From a virus: a DNA stretch of 27,014 bases. Made by a program: the position numbers and the translations under genes. The stretch lies in IMG/VR virus record IMGVR_UViG_3300036398_003980, positions 1 through 27,014 of that record, one strand, 5' to 3'. The notes under the pieces are model-generated. The model saw nothing but the letters and a program-made list of their open reading frames with translations, did not search any database and was not told the origin of the DNA. Positions 6,080 to 18,225 of the stretch are shown here, one piece after another (the stretch's first letter is position 1; each line of letters opens with the position of its first letter).

Positions 6080-9777
<3,698 letters not shown>

Positions 9778-9781
<4 letters not shown>

Positions 9782-10035
9782 GGACGAGTGAAAAGGTGAC
9801 TGATGGTCTGCTGGACGACCCAGCCGATGATGCCGACGACGGTGGAGAGTGCTGCAACGCCGCCGATGATCTTTGATCGGTAGGCGAGCTGTGTTTCTTC
9901 GAGGTCTTTGATCCGCTTGTCCTGCGACGCGAGCAGGGCTTGGATGTCAACGAGGCGTTGTTCGCTCTGCTCCAGTTTCAGAAGCACCGAGGCGAACATC
10001 GCATCGACGGATTTCAGGTTGACCTCTTGGCTCAT
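9778..10035 (-). CDS. Small holin-like (XhlA-like) membrane protein
   Basis: The 85-aa protein has an N-terminal heptad-like, charged coiled coil (about 15-50, [20 protein letters not shown] and onward). A single hydrophobic segment (about 56-77, [20 protein letters not shown]) and a short tail follow. This coiled coil plus one C-terminal membrane helix is the layout of XhlA / holin-associated proteins, which act with a holin at the inner membrane in lysis. Assignment rests on layout, not on a clear family motif. Its ATG overlaps the TGA of the lipoprotein gene by 4 nt, and its own TGA overlaps the ATG of the fibre gene, so the three are probably co-translated. Confidence 0.55.
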
Positions 10036-10673
10036 TTTTTGTCGGCCCTTCCTTTGTAGTAAGAAAGTCTAGACAGGGCGTAAATAACAAAGAGCGATCC
10101 GATTCCAGCGAAGAGGATGATCCGCTCGTTGCCCACAAAGAGCGTTGGGCCGAAGACTAGGGTCAGGCCAATCGCTGCCGTGGCCATCTGGACCTCCTTG
10201 CCGCCGCTGATCGCAACACGGACCGCTGGGTGGAACATCGCTGCGGCGACGAGTAACAAGGCGATACCTACATACTGGACTGGCTGAAAGCTGGCGAGCT
10301 TGGCAGAAATTTCCCGGGACGTGTCCTTCTGAGCGGCCCCGATCTGCTGGTTCGTGTCCCGGGTCGATGAGATCACCTTCACCGTGCCCGCCGGGATCAC
10401 TTCCGTCACCTTGGTCACGGACCCGTCCGCGAGCTTCGTTTCCGTCACTCGCTCGGTGGGCTGGGCGAAGACGTACTTCTCTTCCCTCACGTCTCGGGTC
10501 GTCTGGGAGGACGGCGTGGAGGGGTTGTCGGGCGGCTCCAGCGTGAGGTTCACGTCAGCCGCGAGGTTGCCCACGGGCTCGATCTTCGCGGCCCCACCCT
10601 TCAATGGGCGCAGGGCTCCGGTGTTACACCCGGAGACGAGCAGCCAAGCGAAGACGAGGACACCGAACTTCAT
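10032..10673 (-). CDS. Predicted lipoprotein with three membrane segments
   Basis: The 213-aa protein has a lipoprotein signal: MKFGVLVFAWLLVSGC has a lipobox LVSGC with Cys16 as the predicted lipidated residue. A proline- and charge-rich periplasmic-type region (17-128) follows. Then come three hydrophobic segments (about 132-148, 162-180, 184-203) and a basic C-terminus, [11 protein letters not shown] do not recognise a family. Position before a holin-like gene suggests a lysis role (a spanin or holin partner); superinfection exclusion is an alternative. It is the first gene of a new transcription unit: a terminator and a CGTATACT motif lie immediately upstream, and only 6 nt separate TATACT from the ATG. 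Confidence 0.7.
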   Translation of the reverse strand: MKFGVLVFAWLLVSGCNTGALRPLKGGAAKIEPVGNLAADVNLTLEPPDNPSTPSSQTTRDVREEKYVFAQPTERVTETKLADGSVTKVTEVIPAGTVKVISSTRDTNQQIGAAQKDTSREISAKLASFQPVQYVGIALLLVAAAMFHPAVRVAISGGKEVQMATAAIGLTLVFGPTLFVGNERIILFAGIGSLFVIYALSRLSYYKGRADKK

Positions 10674-10679
10674 GGCCTG

Positions 10680-10687
10680 AGTATACG
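10680..10687 (-). promoter_or_regulatory. CGTATACT motif, candidate promoter -10 before the lipoprotein gene
   Basis: The minus-strand sequence reads AGTCGTATACTCAGGCCATG. If TATACT is a -10 box, transcription would begin about at the A of the start codon at 10673, giving a leaderless message. It lies just after the capsid terminator, where a new promoter would be expected. No clear -35 was found. Confidence 0.5.
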
Positions 10688-10696
10688 ACTTTCCGG

Positions 10697-10737
10697 GCCA
10701 AAAGAAACGCCCGCCCCGGTCGGAACCAAGGGCGGGC
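10697..10737 (-). terminator. Intrinsic terminator after the capsid gene
   Basis: On the minus strand an 8-bp perfect GC stem, GCCCGCCC (10730-10737) with GGGCGGGC (10709-10716), is followed by the U-rich tail GTTTCTTTT. The 13-nt loop can form a further 3-bp stem. It follows the capsid stop by about 35 nt. Confidence 0.8.
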
Positions 10738-10742
10738 GGCGG

Positions 10743-10763
10743 CTCTGAGGGACTATCTCAGAG
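10743..10763 (-). repeat. Second hairpin in the capsid 3' untranslated region
   Basis: A perfect 7-bp inverted repeat CTCTGAG / CTCAGAG with a 7-nt loop lies between the capsid stop and the GC-rich terminator, with no U-tract. It could protect the 3' end of the message. Its TCTGAG/CTCAGA arms loosely resemble those of the palindromes before the HTH-glycosyltransferase gene. Confidence 0.6.
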
Positions 10764-10771
10764 GGGGTAGG

Positions 10772-12007
10772 TTACAGCCCGAGGCTGGTCACCGGACACG
10801 CGGTCACCTCGAACTGCAAGCAACGCTTGTACAGGATCGGCGTAACAGCCGCCGGACGGACCGGCTGGTAGGCGCGGGTGATCTCGTACTTGTGCCAGCC
10901 GAAGTCGCCGTACATGTTCTCACAGTTGTCCAGCTCGTAGTGCCACTGCAGCTCACCCATGACGAGCTGCGGAGCGAACTTGAACGAGCCTTCGCCCGTG
11001 TAACGCTCCGGAACCAGACGCTTGAACGAACCGGCACCGATCAGGAAGCCGACCTCGAAGGGAGCAGCGACCCAAGCCGGGTTGACGCGAGCGGCGGTGC
11101 CGTTGGTCGTCGCAACACCGATGAACGGCTCGACGAAGATCGGCTGGCCGTTGATGTCGAGACCGGACGCACGCAGCGGACGCTGGTCGATACCGAAGCT
11201 GACGCCACGGTAGTTGCCGAACGTTTCCCACGAGTAGCTCGTGAGGGCGCGTTCGCCGGACTTGAAGGAACCGGTCGTCAGGGCGATCAGGGTCTCCTTG
11301 ACGCCAGCCTCCTGACGGAACTGCTCGATGATGTCCACCGAACCGATGAACTTGTAGTGGGCACCGTTCGTGCCGTCAGCAAACATCTCATCGAGGATGG
11401 TGTCCTTCTTGTAGCGAGCGACCGCATGCAGGGCCGAGAACGTGAGCTGGCCGATGTTGGCCGCCGGGATGTTCGCGTACTGGATGTCGATCTGAGCCTC
11501 ACCACCGGTGAAGAGCTGGCTGAAGCCGTAGGTGCTGGACAGACCAGCCACGAACTTCGTGCCCGAGCGGTCGTGCAGGGTCGCACGCACGTCGGTGTTC
11601 ATGTACTGAACCATCAGCTTCTTCAGCGAGTCCTCGGCCATCGTGTACGAGCCCTTGTAGGCCGCGAAGCCGTTCTTCACGCACACCTTGGGGCCGATAC
11701 CGCGCTTCGTGCCGAGAGCGTAGCTGTACTCGGTCGTGGCGACGTTGTCCTGCGAGTCAACCGGTCCGCAGATGGTCGCGGTCGTGGCAAACGTCGGGCG
11801 GACGAGGGAGTCATTCGGGAGGGCCTGATCCTGAACGACGGAGCGGACCGTATCCGAAATACCGGACGGGAACACACCACCCTCAAGGACGTTGACCCAC
11901 GGGGAGTTGTAAGCAAGTGCCTTGGCGATCTGGCCAAGCACGCGATTGGTGTCCTTCGTCGCAAGAGCGCGAGCGGCGATAGGACCGAAGCAATTAGAAA
12001 CAGCCAT
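10772..12007 (-). CDS. Probable major capsid protein
   Basis: The 411-aa protein has no signal peptide or membrane segment and a mixed alpha/beta composition with few Lys-rich or low-complexity stretches. I see no diagnostic motif, so the call rests on context. It lies in the usual place after portal and scaffold-like genes (two glycosyltransferases intervene) and has a typical capsid length. It is also insulated as its own transcription unit, with a CGTATACT motif and about 150-nt leader upstream and a strong intrinsic terminator downstream, as expected for the most abundant virion protein. An alternative would be another abundant structural protein such as a major tail protein. The start ATG 12007 has no Shine-Dalgarno. 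Confidence 0.72.
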   Translation of the reverse strand: MAVSNCFGPIAARALATKDTNRVLGQIAKALAYNSPWVNVLEGGVFPSGISDTVRSVVQDQALPNDSLVRPTFATTATICGPVDSQDNVATTEYSYALGTKRGIGPKVCVKNGFAAYKGSYTMAEDSLKKLMVQYMNTDVRATLHDRSGTKFVAGLSSTYGFSQLFTGGEAQIDIQYANIPAANIGQLTFSALHAVARYKKDTILDEMFADGTNGAHYKFIGSVDIIEQFRQEAGVKETLIALTTGSFKSGERALTSYSWETFGNYRGVSFGIDQRPLRASGLDINGQPIFVEPFIGVATTNGTAARVNPAWVAAPFEVGFLIGAGSFKRLVPERYTGEGSFKFAPQLVMGELQWHYELDNCENMYGDFGWHKYEITRAYQPVRPAAVTPILYKRCLQFEVTACPVTSLGL

Positions 12008-12037
12008 GATAAGATGCCCGAAGAATGGATGGTCTCA

Positions 12038-12053
12038 CCGTGCTTGGGCACGG
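12038..12053 (-). promoter_or_regulatory. Hairpin in the capsid gene leader
   Basis: CCGTGC and GCACGG form a perfect 6-bp stem with a 4-nt loop, about 30 nt before the capsid start codon, in the predicted untranslated leader. It could stabilise the message or influence initiation at a start that lacks a Shine-Dalgarno. Confidence 0.4.
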
Positions 12054-12159
12054 CGCGGCGAGAAGGGAAGTGAACGCTACTCCTTCGCCAGACCAGCGGC
12101 TCGGACAATCTTTAGGGTCGATGGACGGTTGAGCACTCCGGCCAATTTAGGCTCGCCCT

Positions 12160-12167
12160 AGTATACG
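12160..12167 (-). promoter_or_regulatory. CGTATACT motif, candidate capsid promoter
   Basis: The minus-strand sequence reads GTGCGTATACTAGGG, 6 nt after the stop of the upstream glycosyltransferase. It predicts a leader of about 145 nt for the capsid message, unlike the nearly leaderless arrangement at the other copies. A TTGAAA lies 19 nt further upstream and could act as a weakly spaced -35. Confidence 0.5.
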
Positions 12168-12173
12168 CACTTT

Positions 12174-12890
12174 TTACGCAGCGTTTTCAAAGAAACGTCT
12201 GCGAATGATCTGCAGCCCACTGTCGTCCTTGATCCCGTGCACGAACGCGTACTTGGTCCCGGGTCGATAGAGGTCCGCCGTGGATACGTTCTGGCCCCGG
12301 TAGAGGTTGAGCATCTGGTTGCTCTTCCACCAGTGGCGGCTCAGTCGATGCGCGTGGTACACGTCCCACCCGATGTGCGGGGCCGAGCCCTCAAGGCCGG
12401 GGACGCGGTCGCAGAGAGACGGGTGGAATAGCATGTTGCCATTGATGTGCCCTACAGGGCTGTGGTGCTCGGACCACGCCCCCATGACCAGCTTCTTGTC
12501 CTCAAGGGCCATCTTCCACTCCCGCTCGATGCGGTAGAGCCAGTTCCTCTGCAGCGGCAGGATGTCCGCCTCTAGTAGCCAGACTCCCGTGACACGCTTC
12601 CACTCGCCCCTGTTCCACTTCTCCTGCGCCAGCATGAAGGCGTCCGAGGCCATGCCGTTGCACCCAGCGGGCCATCCCACCTCCTTGCGTCGGCAGGTGT
12701 GCGTGTAGAGATCGAACTTGCGGCCAACGTACCCGAGGGTCTCCTCGTCCACGGGCGACGCGTCGAAACGCCGTAGGAACATGAACGCGAAGCTGTCGTC
12801 CTTCTGCGGTTGCAGGTCTGCGATGAGCCGGGCAACGGACTGAGCCCGCTGCTTGTCGCCCTCCCAGTACTGCATGCAGAGGACGATCAT
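12174..12890 (-). CDS. GT-A-fold glycosyltransferase-like protein
   Basis: In this 238-aa protein the core motif is VWLLEADILPL (about 103-113), an acidic ExD motif at the end of a strand as in GT-A enzymes, where it binds the metal and nucleotide sugar. GHINGNMLFHP (147-157) resembles the acceptor-side strand of such enzymes. The N-terminus (MIVLCMQYWEGDKQRAQSVA) fits the first Rossmann-like strand and helix. Substrate is unknown. Its ATG overlaps the stop of the HTH-glycosyltransferase gene by 4 nt (ATGA), so the two are probably produced together, directly before the capsid gene. The length is short for a full GT2 enzyme. Confidence 0.65.
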   Translation of the reverse strand: MIVLCMQYWEGDKQRAQSVARLIADLQPQKDDSFAFMFLRRFDASPVDEETLGYVGRKFDLYTHTCRRKEVGWPAGCNGMASDAFMLAQEKWNRGEWKRVTGVWLLEADILPLQRNWLYRIEREWKMALEDKKLVMGAWSEHHSPVGHINGNMLFHPSLCDRVPGLEGSAPHIGWDVYHAHRLSRHWWKSNQMLNLYRGQNVSTADLYRPGTKYAFVHGIKDDSGLQIIRRRFFENAA

Positions 12891-13948
12891 CGCCCCCGCG
12901 TGTTGTGTGCGCCGTAGCAGGCGAATCCGATGTGCCCGCAGTGGACCGACAGGTCAACGTACGACTGGTGCCCAGCGATGCCCGCACGGATGCCGAAGGT
13001 CTGGTCCTCGCCCTGCTGCAGGCGCGAGTTCTTCACCGTCTCCATCTTGGTCTCTTCGAGCTGGGTGCGGATGTCGTCGAACAGACGCTCAACTTCCACG
13101 AGGTCTAGCTTCCCCTCGCGCACGCGCTGGTACGCGCCCGTGACCTGCTCGGACAGCCCGTTGATCTTGTTCACCGCGGCGTCGTTCGCGTTCGAGAAGT
13201 AGTGCCACGACTCCGTCGGGTGCGCTGGGGCGAGGTTGGGGAAGGTCTTGCGGAGATCAAGGTACACCTGACGGTGCACGAGCAGGGCACCCGTCGCGCA
13301 CCACTTCACGGGCTTCAGCTCGTCAATGGGGCCGTTGTGCACGCGGTTGTTCTCGGCGACGCTCTCAGGGGTACTCAGCATCGCCTCGTAGAACATCGCA
13401 CGCCCGTTCGGGTTGCGACCGAAGTAAGTCGCGCCGACGAGGGACTTGTTGTGCGAGAGGAGCGCGTTCAGCGTGTGCTTGCCCGCGTACTTTTCTGGAA
13501 GGTTGAACCCCGTGAAGTGATTAAACCACCCGGCATTCCCAAACGGAAACACCATGTCGTCGTCCGTCCAGAAGGACCACTCGACGCCCGTCTCCAGAAA
13601 CTGATCCGCGAGGACGTTGCGTGCGTGGTGGATGAACGCATCGTTGTGCCGCATGAGGGCACCCATCTTGTCGCGCTCCAAGAGCCCGAGGATGGAGAAG
13701 TGCGTCACCGGGTGCACGGCCTTGTAGAACGGCTGGAGGAGCACGACCTTCTTGCCCTCCCAGTTGGCCCGCTCCACGGGCTTCGCTTCCTTGACCTCGA
13801 ACACCTTCTCCACGGCGGCGATGCTCGGCACCTTGGAGCCGTTGCGCCACTGCTGGATCAGGAGCTTGGATACGCCAAAGAAGTCCGCCGCGGCGTCGTC
13901 GCCGATCTCAACGATCTTCGCCTTTACGATGTTACGAAGGTACGACAT
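12887..13948 (-). CDS. Glycosyltransferase with N-terminal Cro/CI-like helix-turn-helix
   Basis: The 353-aa protein starts with a compact helix-turn-helix (about 17-50): DDAAADFFGVSKLLIQQWRN then GSKVPSIAAVEKVF matches the Cro/CI-type pattern (small residue before GVS, IxxW, G-x-x-x-P). From residue 66 a GT-A domain follows, with KVVLLQPFYK, a triple-Asp motif FWTDDDMVF (127-135), WCATGALLVHR (216-226) and a late GEDQTFGIRAGIAGHQSYVD (313-332) typical of GT2 enzymes. A charged helical insertion (about 256-310) separates the last two motifs. Inferred: sugar transfer plus sequence-specific DNA binding, possibly autoregulation, because two palindromes fill the 56-nt gap before its ATG. No Shine-Dalgarno is present. 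The HTH could instead mediate protein contact. Confidence 0.8.
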   Translation of the reverse strand: MSYLRNIVKAKIVEIGDDAAADFFGVSKLLIQQWRNGSKVPSIAAVEKVFEVKEAKPVERANWEGKKVVLLQPFYKAVHPVTHFSILGLLERDKMGALMRHNDAFIHHARNVLADQFLETGVEWSFWTDDDMVFPFGNAGWFNHFTGFNLPEKYAGKHTLNALLSHNKSLVGATYFGRNPNGRAMFYEAMLSTPESVAENNRVHNGPIDELKPVKWCATGALLVHRQVYLDLRKTFPNLAPAHPTESWHYFSNANDAAVNKINGLSEQVTGAYQRVREGKLDLVEVERLFDDIRTQLEETKMETVKNSRLQQGEDQTFGIRAGIAGHQSYVDLSVHCGHIGFACYGAHNTRGR

Positions 13949-13955
13949 ATAGTTA

Positions 13956-13973
13956 CGTCTGAGGTATCAGACG
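13956..13973 (-). promoter_or_regulatory. Palindrome 1 before the HTH-glycosyltransferase gene (operator or hairpin)
   Basis: CGTCTGAGGTATCAGACG is a perfect 7-bp inverted repeat around GGTA. It starts 7 nt upstream of ATG 13948, where a ribosome-binding site would normally lie. Binding of a protein, or formation of the RNA hairpin, would block translation or transcription of the gene. Confidence 0.6.
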
Positions 13974-13986
13974 CTGTTCGGGTTTT

Positions 13987-14004
13987 GGTCTGGTATATCA
14001 GACC
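13987..14004 (-). promoter_or_regulatory. Palindrome 2 before the HTH-glycosyltransferase gene
   Basis: GGTCTGGTATATCAGACC has 6-bp perfect arms, shares the GTCTG and TATCAGAC blocks with palindrome 1, and is centred 31 bp away (about three DNA turns). It directly abuts the stop codon of the upstream scaffold gene. On the minus strand its centre contains GATATACC, close to a -10 box. Confidence 0.6.
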
Positions 14005-15411
14005 TTAACGCTGCATCGCCTTCCAAGCCTCTTCCATCGCGTCCTCGGCGTTCGTGTCGAAGACATCGACGCGGGGAGCAGCGCGGTCAGCGGTGGCAGA
14101 AGAACGAGTGGTCTTGGAGAGTCGTCCGGCTTCGCGGATGCTGGAGAGTTCCTTCTCCAACGCCTTCACGCGGCCCTCGGCCTCCTTGAGCTGGGCCTGA
14201 TAACGCGGGGCGAGGACACCGGCCAGCGCGAGGATGCTGCGCGTCCGGGCCGAGTCATCCTGCAGGAAAGAGAGCAGCATCTTCTGCGACTCCGCTGCGG
14301 CGGCGTTGTGGCGGTCGATCTCCGCCTTGATGGCGGGCGTCGCGTTCGCGGGCAGTTCCTTTGAGTGGAGGAAAGGAACCTGCGGCAGCACGGGCTTCAG
14401 CGTCCGCACGGCCTCCTCGACGAACTGATCCTGACTGCGGGCGGGCGCGTTGCGCTTCTCGGCCAGAATCTGGTCCGCCTTGGACTTGATGTCCCGGAGC
14501 GCGGACTGGCGGTCGGACTCGATGTTCTCGTTGTCCGCGAGTCGTGCGGTGATGAGGAGCTTGTCACGCGGACTCAGCTTCTCGGCCCAGCGTGCGATCT
14601 GCTCAACCTGCTGGTCGTAGGGCATCGACTTCACCTGATCAACGAGTTCGTCCTTCAGGCCGTTGCGCTTGAGGGCCTCGAAGATCGTGCCGTTGTTCTG
14701 CTCCAAGCGGGAGGAGAACTTCTGCTGGAATTCCGGGTCGCGCTCGGCGTCGAACGTCGCACGGAACTCGCGCAGTTCACGCAGCTCGGCCTCGATGTTG
14801 TCCGGCACCGTCTTCTTCGACAGCTCGTCCACCTTCGCACGCAGCTCAAGCAATTCCTTGCGGGCCTGCTCGGCCTCCGTGCGGGCCTTCGTCTCGCGCT
14901 CCTTCGCGGTGCGCTTCAGCTCTTCAAACGTGTTCTTCGTCTTCTCCGACGCATCGGAGCGGAGCTTCACCTTGTCGTACGGGTCTTCCTCCGTCGGGGT
15001 CTCCGGCTTGGTCTCTACCTTGTCCTCCTTGCCGAGCAGCTTGGTCAGCAGGTCGTCGGGCTGCGGCTCTTCCTGCGCAGGGGCCTCGGGTTGAATCGTG
15101 TCCTCGGGCGTCTCGGGCTTGTCGTTCGAGGCCATCTCGCTCGTGACGACCTCTTCCGTCACGGGCGGCTCCGCCTCCGGCATCTCCTCCGCCGTCTCGA
15201 TCTGGCGGTCGTTCGCCTTGTCGCGGTCACGGTCGGCGATGTTGTCGAGCGTGGTCGGTGCGCGACCAAGTTCGTCCTCGAACAGATTGTCGAGCGCACT
15301 CGTGGCGTCCTCGACATTGTCGGGCGGGAGCACGATGCCGTTCTTGTTACTGAGCGCGGCTTCCGCCATGGCGGAGCGAGAGGGCAGGTCGGGTTGGAGT
15401 GCGTCGGCCAT
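14005..15411 (-). CDS. Putative capsid scaffolding protein
   Basis: In this 468-aa protein the first 150 residues are disordered and acidic (Glu-, Pro- and Thr-rich). A long charged coiled coil follows (about 155-235), then helical segments (270-400), a second coiled coil (about 400-430) and a basic/polar tail ending EDAMEEAWKAMQR. There is no enzyme motif. This long, acidic, highly helical composition directly after portal is typical of phage scaffolding proteins, which guide capsid assembly inside the procapsid and leave or are cleaved. The call is from composition and position, not from a recognised family. Its ATG lies 1 nt after the stop of the small head gene. Confidence 0.6.
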   Translation of the reverse strand: MADALQPDLPSRSAMAEAALSNKNGIVLPPDNVEDATSALDNLFEDELGRAPTTLDNIADRDRDKANDRQIETAEEMPEAEPPVTEEVVTSEMASNDKPETPEDTIQPEAPAQEEPQPDDLLTKLLGKEDKVETKPETPTEEDPYDKVKLRSDASEKTKNTFEELKRTAKERETKARTEAEQARKELLELRAKVDELSKKTVPDNIEAELRELREFRATFDAERDPEFQQKFSSRLEQNNGTIFEALKRNGLKDELVDQVKSMPYDQQVEQIARWAEKLSPRDKLLITARLADNENIESDRQSALRDIKSKADQILAEKRNAPARSQDQFVEEAVRTLKPVLPQVPFLHSKELPANATPAIKAEIDRHNAAAAESQKMLLSFLQDDSARTRSILALAGVLAPRYQAQLKEAEGRVKALEKELSSIREAGRLSKTTRSSATADRAAPRVDVFDTNAEDAMEEAWKAMQR

Positions 15412-15412
15412 G

Positions 15413-15658
15413 TTATTCTGGTGAGGCAGTAAGGTTGATCATCTCCTGCAATGCAAGCTCGTATCCAGCCTGCACATCCGCCTCGGCTATGCGCCGGTCT
15501 GGATCAAAGGGCGCACCCGGCGTGATGGTGGATACGCTTGGGCGCATCCAGAACATCCGCTGGAGAAAAATCTGCCCGGAGGGAGTGTTAAGGAACTGCC
15601 GCAGCGCGGCGGCTTGGTCGGAGGACCAAGTGGGGGTTTCGGTCGGAATCTTAAACAT
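15413..15658 (-). CDS. Small head-region protein of unknown function
   Basis: The 81-aa protein is a mostly helical frame with RQFLNTPSGQIFLQRMF in the middle and AGYELALQEMINLTASPE at the end. Small proteins with a similar 'GYE...' C-terminal helix occur between portal and scaffold genes in phages with short tails, but no function is known to me. Its ATG overlaps the end of the portal gene by 8 nt and its stop lies 1 nt before the scaffold start, so it is part of the same operon. Confidence 0.7.
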   Translation of the reverse strand: MFKIPTETPTWSSDQAAALRQFLNTPSGQIFLQRMFWMRPSVSTITPGAPFDPDRRIAEADVQAGYELALQEMINLTASPE

Positions 15659-17792
15659 TAGGTGGGGGCTGTTCCGCGGGGGCCGCTTGGGCCTCGGCGA
15701 TGGCCTCAGGCGGGATGCCCTGCTGGGCCATTAGAGCTTCCTGCTCCTGCTGCGCTGCGAGGGTAGCTTGGAGCTGCCCCAACTGGGTAGCGGCTTCCCG
15801 AATCTGACGTAGGTCTTCAGCGAATTCGTCCTTCTTGGCACCCGCGGCGACGGCCACCTCGATGTGCTGCGCCCAGTGCCCGAGCGCGATCTGGAACGAG
15901 GCCATGAGTGCCGGGTCGCCAGAGCCGAGCTGCTCCGCAGCCGCCGCGATGACGGGCTTGAGCACCTCGATGTGGACCTGATGGTTGTCGCGGGGAGACA
16001 CCGGCACCTCACGTCCGGCGCTGAGAAGAAGGTTCTCCAGCTCCTGCTGGCGGCTCTGCTCCGTGATCACCGTCGGGTCCGCTTCGGCGAGCATGACATC
16101 CTCCGCGAACTCCGCGTCGATGCGGGCAGCGGCAGCGATCTTCTGGAGCTTGGCCTGATCGAACAGCGGGTCCGTGCGTTTCTCGTTCGCGAATAGGACA
16201 AGCTGCTGGGCCTTGAGGTCGGTGAGGTCATCCACCGTACGCAGCGCGGGCTGCTTGGCGATGTAATCGAGTTCCTCCGGCGACATGTAGTTGAGGAGGT
16301 ACTCGCGGGCCTGCTGGGCCTCGGTGTCGTCGGTCTTGGAGCTGATGACACGCCGCTGGCAGGTGCCGATCATGTTCCCGACCTGAATGAGGAAACGCTC
16401 AAGGATCGCGTCGCGCTTCTCTTCCTCACGCGAGGCGAAGAGGTTCACCTCGCTCGCCGTCGTGCGCTCCCCGCCGAATTCCTTCGGGGTCACGCCGCCC
16501 GCGATCTGGTCCATGTACGCCACGAGCTGGCGGTCAAGAAGGGCGAACGCCTCGACGTTCGGGTCGATGCCCTTCTGCTGCGAGATCGTGTAGTTGGCCG
16601 GGATGAGCACGGCATTACCGTGCACGGCGAGCGCGAAGCGGTTGAGCTGCTTGGCCTCGCCCTGAATGAGAATCTTGCCCGAGAGCTGCAGACGGTCCAC
16701 CACCTCGTTGCGTGCGCGGTCGATTGCCGCGGCGATCTCGAACAGCTCGCGTCCAATGCCCTTCGAGCCCATCAATTTTCCGTTCGCCTGCTGGAACGAG
16801 AAGAGGGCCAGCACGTCGGACATCTGCTCGAACTGGTCGAGCTTCTCGAAGAGAATCTTCTTGGCCCGCCCGTCCACGATGTAGTGACTCACTTGGCCGT
16901 CACACTCGGGGACGTAGAGGTGGTAAATCTCGATGGTCTTCGAGCCGGAGAGAAGCGACAGCGAAACGCTCGACTCGCGGATCGCGTCCTCGAACGTGCG
17001 GAAGTCGGTGTACGGGTTCGAGTTCCCGCCGCCCGTGATGGAGCGCGGGGCCGCGGCGTTGATCGCCGCCACCGTGTTGTCGATGTCCCAGCCAGCGGCC
17101 TCGGCGGCGTCCTTGTTCTCGATGAACGCGGCCAGCTCGTGGATCATCAGGTACTGCTTGCCGATCCAAAGCTGGACACCGGAGATGTTCTGCTTCGTGC
17201 CGTCGGGGACGAAGAATTCATCCTGACGGAAGTGCGTCGGACGCCACGAGTACTCGTCCAGCCACGCGACGGTGGTGAACCCGAAGAGCGCATTCTCCTG
17301 CGACACCTCGTTCAGGAAATCGACCCAACCATCCCAGCCACGAATCGTGTCCGTGATCTTGCGGCGGAAGAGCTCCGTCTTCTGCTTGCCGCCCGGGTGG
17401 TTCTCGGGGAACGACGCGGAGGTGAGGTAACGCGCCGACTGCACGGCCTTCGTGAGACGCGGGCTCACCTTGTCGATGGCCGTGGACAGGGGCTTCGTGG
17501 AGAAGTTGCTCTTCCAGCCCAACCCGTGCTCCTCCAGCTCCTCACGCGTGAACGGACGCTCGGCGTTGTACTTGGCGAGGATGCGACCGTTCTTCTCGTT
17601 CTGATCGCGGCGGGCCTCCTCCAGCGTGGAAATAATCGCGAAGATGTGCTGGACGTTCGAGATCGCACGACGCTTCGGCTTCATCGTCCTCGGGTCGAGG
17701 TCCGGTGAGTTCACCGTGCCGCCGGAGATGCCGTCGGAGGCGGGCGGGATCAGGGCGTTGGTGGACGAAACGTCTGGGTAGGCTTGTTCCAT
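15651..17792 (-). CDS. Portal (head-tail connector) protein
   Basis: The 713-aa protein is of the large portal type known from podovirus-like phages. Supporting features are an early helical clip/wing region, and KGIGRELFEIAAAIDRARNE (346-365), which resembles the portal helix that lines the dodecamer. GERTTASEVN (447-456) is a typical 'xATEV'-like segment, and NHQVHIEVLKPVI (607-619) precedes a long helical, Gln/Ala-rich C-terminus that could form a barrel. Portals form the 12-subunit vertex through which DNA is pumped. Placement between terminase and scaffold supports this. No Shine-Dalgarno precedes ATG 17792. The C-terminal 60 residues are low-complexity (AAQQEQEALMAQQG). Confidence 0.85.
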   Translation of the reverse strand: MEQAYPDVSSTNALIPPASDGISGGTVNSPDLDPRTMKPKRRAISNVQHIFAIISTLEEARRDQNEKNGRILAKYNAERPFTREELEEHGLGWKSNFSTKPLSTAIDKVSPRLTKAVQSARYLTSASFPENHPGGKQKTELFRRKITDTIRGWDGWVDFLNEVSQENALFGFTTVAWLDEYSWRPTHFRQDEFFVPDGTKQNISGVQLWIGKQYLMIHELAAFIENKDAAEAAGWDIDNTVAAINAAAPRSITGGGNSNPYTDFRTFEDAIRESSVSLSLLSGSKTIEIYHLYVPECDGQVSHYIVDGRAKKILFEKLDQFEQMSDVLALFSFQQANGKLMGSKGIGRELFEIAAAIDRARNEVVDRLQLSGKILIQGEAKQLNRFALAVHGNAVLIPANYTISQQKGIDPNVEAFALLDRQLVAYMDQIAGGVTPKEFGGERTTASEVNLFASREEEKRDAILERFLIQVGNMIGTCQRRVISSKTDDTEAQQAREYLLNYMSPEELDYIAKQPALRTVDDLTDLKAQQLVLFANEKRTDPLFDQAKLQKIAAAARIDAEFAEDVMLAEADPTVITEQSRQQELENLLLSAGREVPVSPRDNHQVHIEVLKPVIAAAAEQLGSGDPALMASFQIALGHWAQHIEVAVAAGAKKDEFAEDLRQIREAATQLGQLQATLAAQQEQEALMAQQGIPPEAIAEAQAAPAEQPPPNV

Positions 17793-17808
17793 GTCGGGGG
17801 CTAGTTAC

Positions 17809-18225
17809 CTATAGCTTACGACTGAAGAAGCGGTACCCACGCCGGTTGGTACGAAGGTACTTGATTGCGGCCCGGAGGACGCGAATCTTGTCCTTGGCCA
17901 TGCCGAGGAGGGTGTTGCAGTGCTGGCAGAGGACGCCGCGGACGCGCTTGGTCTGGTGGCAGTGGTCCACCATGAGGGTCCGCTTGAGGGTATGCTCGGG
18001 TACTCCGCAGATCATGCACCGGTGCTTCGCTTTGGCCCGAATGGTGTGCCACTGCTCGCGGGAGAGCCCGTAGCGGTTCCGGAGGTTGTCGCCCATCCGG
18101 TCCCGGGGGTACTTCCGATGGCACTCGCGGCACCGGGACGAGTGGTAGGGCTTCTTGGCCGAGTGGCAGACATAGAACTCCGAGACGGGCTTTTCCGTTC
18201 CGCAGTGGGAACAAACCTTAGTCAC
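17809..18225 (-). CDS. Endonuclease VII-type recombination endonuclease (HNH-like)
   Basis: The 138-aa protein has an N-terminal zinc-ribbon (Cys5, Cys8, Cys32, Cys35; VCSHCGTEKPVSEFY). The catalytic region has RYGLSREQWHTI (51-62), Cys70-x2-Cys73, VDHCHQTKRVRGVLCQHCN (86-104) with the His/Asp catalytic cluster and Cys100-x2-Cys103. This is the endonuclease VII family signature (T4 gp49-like), which resolves branched DNA before or during packaging. Free-standing homing nucleases share the fold. The GTG start at 18225 overlaps the end of the kinase-like gene by 8 nt, which favours a resident operon gene over a recent mobile insertion. Confidence 0.85.
   Translation of the reverse strand: MTKVCSHCGTEKPVSEFYVCHSAKKPYHSSRCRECHRKYPRDRMGDNLRNRYGLSREQWHTIRAKAKHRCMICGVPEHTLKRTLMVDHCHQTKRVRGVLCQHCNTLLGMAKDKIRVLRAAIKYLRTNRRGYRFFSRKL

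Follow-up and report, generated by a model that had tools for sequence, protein, structure and literature searches.

A helix–turn–helix/glycosyltransferase fusion in a phage structural-gene cluster and the clade-restricted paired palindromes upstream of its gene

RESULTS

A glycosyltransferase gene in the virion module of an uncultured phage

The window, that is, the whole stretch of DNA analyzed, is the 27,014-nt (27-kb) virus record IMGVR_UViG_3300036398_003980 from an uncultured tailed phage. Genes on its minus strand are arranged in the order terminase-like, portal-like, 81-aa ORF, scaffold-like, helix–turn–helix (HTH)–glycosyltransferase (GT), 238-aa partner, capsid-like, and collagen-like tail fibre (Table 1). 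The terminase-like call is a weak PHROG match, and the portal, scaffold and capsid names were given by position and size, with no match for any of the three in the family libraries. The 81-aa ORF (15413–15658) was ruled out as non-coding sequence, being conserved as a protein. The tail fibre (6080–9781, minus strand; 1233 aa) contains many G-P-T and G-Y-T triplets and is a possible GT acceptor. Elsewhere, a small minus-strand ORF at 17809–18225, in the gap 17793–18217, resembles an HNH/recombination-endonuclease-VII-type protein, with cysteine pairs and a DHCH motif recognized by eye. No Rfam family was detected in the window. Close relatives of the GT, capsid-like and portal-like proteins were absent from GenBank phages, suggesting that this phage group has no cultured members.

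Table 1 Features of the HTH-GT locus (positions in the window).
Feature	Position	Strand	Description and basis
Major-capsid-like gene	10772..12007	-	411 aa; assigned by position, no family match; 31 loci in viral contigs; anchor for finding relatives
238-aa partner gene	12174..12890	-	Downstream of GT gene; accompanies GT in nearly all relatives; no family match
HTH-glycosyltransferase gene (P0001)	12887..13948	-	353 aa; ORF and translation; 14 homologous loci in viral contigs
GT-A glycosyltransferase domain, ~residues 64–342	12923..13759	-	Fold comparison, PHROG matches, invariant residues; DDD 129–131, GED 313–315, H339
Cro/CI-like HTH domain, residues 2–50	13799..13945	-	AlphaFold2 helices, hhalign, conservation in 13/14 other homologues
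Palindrome 2	13956..13973		CGTCTGAGGTATCAGACG, 7-bp arms; minus-strand reading CGTCTGATACCTCAGACG; 7 nt before ATG
Palindrome 1, first in transcript	13987..14004		GGTCTGGTATATCAGACC, 6-bp arms; minus-strand reading GGTCTGATATACCAGACC; directly after stop codon of scaffold-like gene
Scaffold-like gene	14005..15411	-	468 aa; upstream of GT gene, between portal-like and capsid-like genes; position and conservation in relatives; no family match

Relatives were collected as five contigs from a search with the GT protein and 31 from a search with the capsid-like protein, in which the GT was read out by phmmer. With identical copies left out, 14 other loci were compared (L002, L003, L004, L005, L101, L102, L105, L113, L114, L116, L117, L119, L120 and L125), all of which have this gene, likewise within the structural-gene cluster. 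A WTDDDM pattern scan of viral contigs added one further GT-like ORF (L077), a weak match. The closer relatives share the order portal–scaffold–GT–partner–capsid, even where the capsid protein is only 44–65% identical, which indicates that the GT gene belongs to the virion module; in the L105–L125 group (L105, L113–L125), GT and partner still lie upstream of the capsid gene. Both genes are absent from L104, where the scaffold gene is followed by the capsid gene, and they thus constitute an accessory pair. The partner has invariant E-x-D, H-x-N-G-N, G-W-D and H-G-x-K residues and, on this motif reading, is a possible second transferase.

The protein joins a predicted Cro/CI-like HTH to a GT-A domain

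The initial annotation described P0001 as a Cro/CI-like HTH fused to a GT-A enzyme with a TDDDM motif, and our analyses agree, with TDDDM at residues 128–132 and a GT-A fold in the model. AlphaFold2 with 13 homologues (pLDDT 79) predicted a GT-A domain that starts at residue 64, preceded by four short helices at the N terminus, and in a run with five close sequences the HTH alone was well modeled. The N-terminal helices (residues 2–15, 17–24, 28–36 and 43–49; pLDDT ~75–92) were the same in two independent models, and their predicted arrangement matches the Cro/CI (XRE) layout, a bundle of four to five short helices in which helices 2 and 3 form the HTH. The HTH family profile aligned with the P22-like CI of Salmonella phage SPN9CC in pairwise hhalign (E 8.5e-5), PHROG returned an HTH match for the N-terminal domain (E 0.017), and tblastn in phages gave weak matches (E ~0.1), mostly to phage repressors. 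Since Pfam returned no HTH match for this domain, its assignment as an HTH is based on the model, on conservation and on the profile alignment.

VIA-align comparison of the GT domain gave Z-scores of 16.4 over 186 residues to LH3, 16.2 over 170 residues to STIV A197, and 14.8 to both Mnn9 and COLGALT1, with most other GT-A families at ~13. All 13 family members matched phrog_1574, and eight matched phrog_34859 (‘glycosyltransferase’). Asp129, Asp131, Glu314, Asp315 and His339 are invariant in 13 homologues (26–97% identical), and the D-x-D and GED/H motifs are intact in the window protein. The GT-A fold is thus confirmed, and by its modeled fold and catalytic-type residues the protein is a predicted GT-A glycosyltransferase. 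A profile search of PDB sequences returned nothing relevant. We consider the fusion genuine. It appears to be undescribed in the libraries that were searched, and open-access papers yielded no description of an HTH-glycosyltransferase fusion, although the absence of such papers is no proof.

The HTH is retained throughout the relatives with the exception of L102, whose protein starts at the GT domain. In the L105–L125 group, it is preceded by a proline-rich N-terminal extension of ~150 residues, and its recognition-helix region is near neutral, most basic residues having been lost; this region is basic in the window (net +3), L003 and L005.

Paired palindromes occupy the gap upstream of the gene in one clade

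The gap before the gene had been annotated as 56 nt with two related palindromes 31 bp apart. This is correct: the gap (13949–14004) is exactly 56 nt, and the palindromes are in register. GTCTG/CAGAC arms are common to both, and within the window GTCTG-N6-CAGAC occurs in this gap only. The accompanying claim that no other gene junction has such sites holds for the GTCTG motif, but a different palindrome, CTCTGAGGGACTATCTCAGAG, lies at 10743–10763 in the junction after the capsid gene. In the contigs G001 and G003, GTCTG-N6-CAGAC is found directly before the HTH-GT gene only, and no further occurrence was seen in six phage records; a wider regulon or phage-wide repeat was thereby ruled out. Lone palindromes with arms of 7 bp are common in the window, but only one pair has the same 5-bp arms within 60 nt, versus 2 in 20 first-order Markov shuffles; twins of this kind are thus rare in shuffled sequence. 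An intrinsic terminator was also ruled out, as no T run follows the palindromes on either strand.

Palindromic sites directly upstream of the gene were found in three of the 13 other HTH-bearing homologues, all from the window’s immediate clade: two each in L002 and L004, and in L003 one palindrome (GTCTGATAAGTCAGAC) plus a damaged copy (GTCTGATATGTCGCAC) now running into the start codon. L005 has neither palindromes nor intergenic space, its scaffold stop and GT start overlapping as ATGA; in its 41 kb, there was no site with fewer than two mismatches and there were two matches at two mismatches, a control pattern also giving two. L101, which overlaps its upstream gene, and L102, which starts right after the upstream stop, have no palindromes. 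No GTCTG palindromes were found upstream of the gene in L105–L125; an unrelated palindrome, ATCTGCTGGAAGGAAGCAGAT, lies 35 nt upstream in L120, and one lies 126 nt upstream in L105.

Across the 56 nt of the window, L002 and L004, seven positions vary, none of them among the 26 arm positions (hypergeometric P=0.009), while 83 of 354 third positions of the GT gene differ between the window and L004. From this comparison of a small, closely related sample, the arms appear to be under selection in the closest kin. The constraint bears on whether the palindromic stretch is an inserted relic without function, as might be supposed from its absence in L005 and all more distant relatives, its decay in L003, and the finding that a junction of the relative G003 likewise holds a short tandem array (period 32) that forms hairpins. 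The arms, however, have been spared substitution while neighbouring sites vary at about the third-codon-position rate, and we regard a relic as improbable.

The shared invariant arms would also suit a sequence-specific protein other than the GT, of phage or host origin, acting as a regulator of the late operon at the scaffold/GT junction. In public genomes, the twin pattern was found in 82 stretches of bacterial genomes, many within ORFs or tandem repeats, and in two further viral contigs, inside an ORF. None of the bacterial stretches was taken as a relative; the one likeness noted is in Streptomycetaceae loci (L157:2062–4500 and L145:355–2785), which carry paired palindromes, GTCTGGGATCCCAGAC, with a spacing of 22 or 32 and the same arms as the phage sites. 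The genes on either side of these near-identical pairs encode an IclR-family regulator and an aromatic amino acid lyase, and such palindrome pairs can therefore be operators of unrelated regulators. However, the motif is found nowhere else in the phage contigs, and the Streptomycetaceae likeness may be due to chance; we regard sites of another protein as improbable, slightly more so than a relic.

Self-repression is not supported as a family trait

The initial annotation proposed that the enzyme represses its own gene. Its premises hold, in that the fusion and the palindromes are real, the pair is unique, and the arms are constrained in the closest kin. However, when the accompanying expectation that HTH-bearing homologues keep upstream palindromes was applied to the relatives, 10 of the 13 other HTH-bearing loci were found to have none, an outcome that the annotation itself had named as refuting the proposal. 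With the palindromes limited to the window’s closest kin, self-repression is not borne out family-wide; it is unsupported as a family trait and, judging from these comparisons, possible only if it arose locally, within a single clade.

In such a clade-specific arrangement, HTH-GT dimers on the two palindromes would block transcription arriving from the scaffold gene as a roadblock, possibly tuned by nucleotide sugar. The resemblance of the HTH to a P22-type CI repressor, the basic recognition-helix region, and two sites with identical invariant arms in one helical phase, placed directly before the HTH-GT gene as the sole occurrence of the pair in the window, G001 and G003, all speak for it. 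The distribution of recognition helices speaks against it. At residues 28, 29, 32 and 33, which we take from the P22 and 434 repressors to be the DNA-contact positions, the window and L005 have K-L-Q-Q and L003 has K-A-M-Q. L005 therefore retains Lys28, Leu29, Gln32 and Gln33 but has no site, and its 41 kb hold no more near-sites than expected from the control; L003 has changed two of the four contact-type residues (L29A and Q32M), yet keeps a GTCTGA..TCAGAC palindrome. A helix unchanged where the sites are gone and altered where a site is kept is, over the few lineages compared, the reverse of what an operator would be expected to show. Nor is the HTH decaying where palindromes are absent, since the L005 protein (75% identical to that of the window) is similarly conserved in the HTH (40/52) and the GT domain (77%). 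Moreover, a scan of 9900–15700, gap included, for sigma-70-like promoters found none. We consider clade-specific autoregulation unlikely, although it is a serious alternative. The fuller scenario, in which a GT of the structural module acquired an operator pair in the window’s clade and its CI-like HTH now limits its own synthesis, with the nucleotide-sugar donor as a possible signal, is if anything a shade more doubtful.

The palindromes may act as hairpins in the late mRNA

We tentatively prefer, at somewhat less than even confidence, a role for the palindromes at the RNA level in the late mRNA; paired mRNA hairpins are slightly more likely than an operator of the enzyme itself. Their position between a stop and a start codon fits this role, as does the lack of a sigma-70-like promoter in the scanned region. 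RNA folding of the gap strand gave z-scores of −4.5 in the window, −4.4 in L002 and −4.2 in L004, values that are not independent of the palindromes themselves. In L004, the G-T pair next to palindrome 2 has become A-T, a wobble-compatible change that keeps the RNA pair. The same relative preserves the hairpin that follows the capsid gene by means of a G-U pair, which suggests that this clade makes use of RNA hairpins at gene junctions. The confinement of all seven variable sites to positions outside the arms further indicates a functional element.

Several observations nevertheless weigh against hairpins. Both palindromes have the same arms, which hairpins do not need and a sequence-reading protein does, and palindromes of 16–18 bp at a 31-bp spacing suit a dimeric CI-like protein. 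L003 keeps one palindrome only, and its gap strand folds no better than shuffles (z −0.35). In addition, the arms show no compensatory change of the kind that would support base pairing.

Based on these data, we propose the following model. The protein is a phage GT-A glycosyltransferase that belongs to the structural-gene module and carries a Cro/CI-type HTH, old and accessory, at its N terminus. This HTH may help to place or dimerize the enzyme and may bind nucleic acid, but would not be tied to the palindromes. Such a separation is consistent with the HTH being present in 13 of 14 other homologues and the palindromes in only three, and with L005, which combines the same recognition helix with an ATGA junction; L102 and stand-alone phage GTs that lack an HTH are consistent with its accessory status. 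The palindromes would form a separate, young cis element of the window’s clade, inserted between the scaffold-like and GT genes at the junction where a relative (L005) has a direct overlap. As two hairpins in the late mRNA, they could decouple GT expression from the abundant scaffold message or adjust its level relative to that message.

Structured elements were also seen at other junctions. The leader of the capsid-like gene (12008–12173, minus strand) has a promoter-like AAAGTGCGTATACT followed by a ~140-nt untranslated stretch, the first part of which is strongly conserved together with a CCGTGC-CCAA-GCACGG hairpin, even in L005; the consensus fold (−34 kcal/mol) shows no clear covariation and has no Rfam match. 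After the capsid gene (10674–10771, minus strand), a hairpin is followed by a G+C-rich terminator-like stem with TTTCTTTT and by a second CGTATACT box just before the next gene, and GTCGTATACT is kept in L005 too. In G003 (~27.3 kb), a 32-nt unit with a CGGCGGACGACGCCG hairpin is present as three tandem copies at the end of a nuclease-like gene, before the next gene (L213:7317–7400); this array looks like a tandem duplication of the 3′ end of the nuclease-like gene.

DISCUSSION

The position of the gene in the virion cluster and the modeled fold suggest that the GT glycosylates a virion protein. In our model, the acceptor is most likely a virion component, either the capsid protein or the collagen-like tail fibre. 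Collagen-modifying enzymes are among the best fold matches, which makes the fibre a lead to follow rather than evidence of the acceptor. Glycosylation of DNA bases was also considered and left as unsupported: neither a thymidylate-synthase/dCMP-hydroxymethylase family nor a Tet/JBP match was found in 12 related records, which are fragments, and because control genomes likewise gave no Tet/JBP match, that negative is uninformative.

Glycosylation of phage virions is an emerging field of study, and the conserved HTH-GT next to the capsid gene offers a defined enzyme class for tests of acceptor and targeting. Nucleic-acid binding by the HTH would tie sugar transfer to gene control or to the genome; without such binding, a repressor fold would have been reused as a targeting or dimerization module. 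Should autoregulation in the window’s clade prove true, a single protein would link virion glycosylation to late gene expression. A more general lesson is that relatives should be checked before palindromes beside an HTH gene are called operators.

Phage glycosyltransferases have been linked to capsid glycosylation in a passage of PMC11256854 that cites Freeman et al. 2023. By profile match, the phage GT-A enzymes of PHROG 1574 and 34859 have the same domain as the window protein, without the HTH. The Manatee Spring phages MW202496 and MW202711 likewise encode a stand-alone GT with this domain and without an HTH, also beside scaffold and capsid genes. The window protein differs from these GTs also in a helical insert at ~residues 256–310, of which Sinorhizobium phage P0003 has a shorter counterpart. 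LH3, COLGALT1, yeast Mnn9 and STIV A197 resemble the window GT in fold (Z 14.8–16.4) at only 8–18% identity; a common GT-A fold reveals neither donor nor acceptor.

The HTH shares its helix order and the turn W-x-N-G-x-x-x-P-S with the P22-like CI of SPN9CC (34% identity over 47 columns). Unlike in CI repressors, it is not followed by a LexA-like cleavage/dimerization domain, and its gene sits in a structural-gene cluster rather than an immunity region. The combination of activities is reminiscent of GmaR of Listeria monocytogenes, which is both a GlcNAc transferase and an antirepressor of MogR (PMC9638930). GmaR works by binding the MogR repressor with a C-terminal antirepressor domain rather than by means of its own DNA-binding HTH, in contrast to the architecture predicted here; it provides a precedent for one protein that combines sugar transfer with transcription control (PMC9638930).
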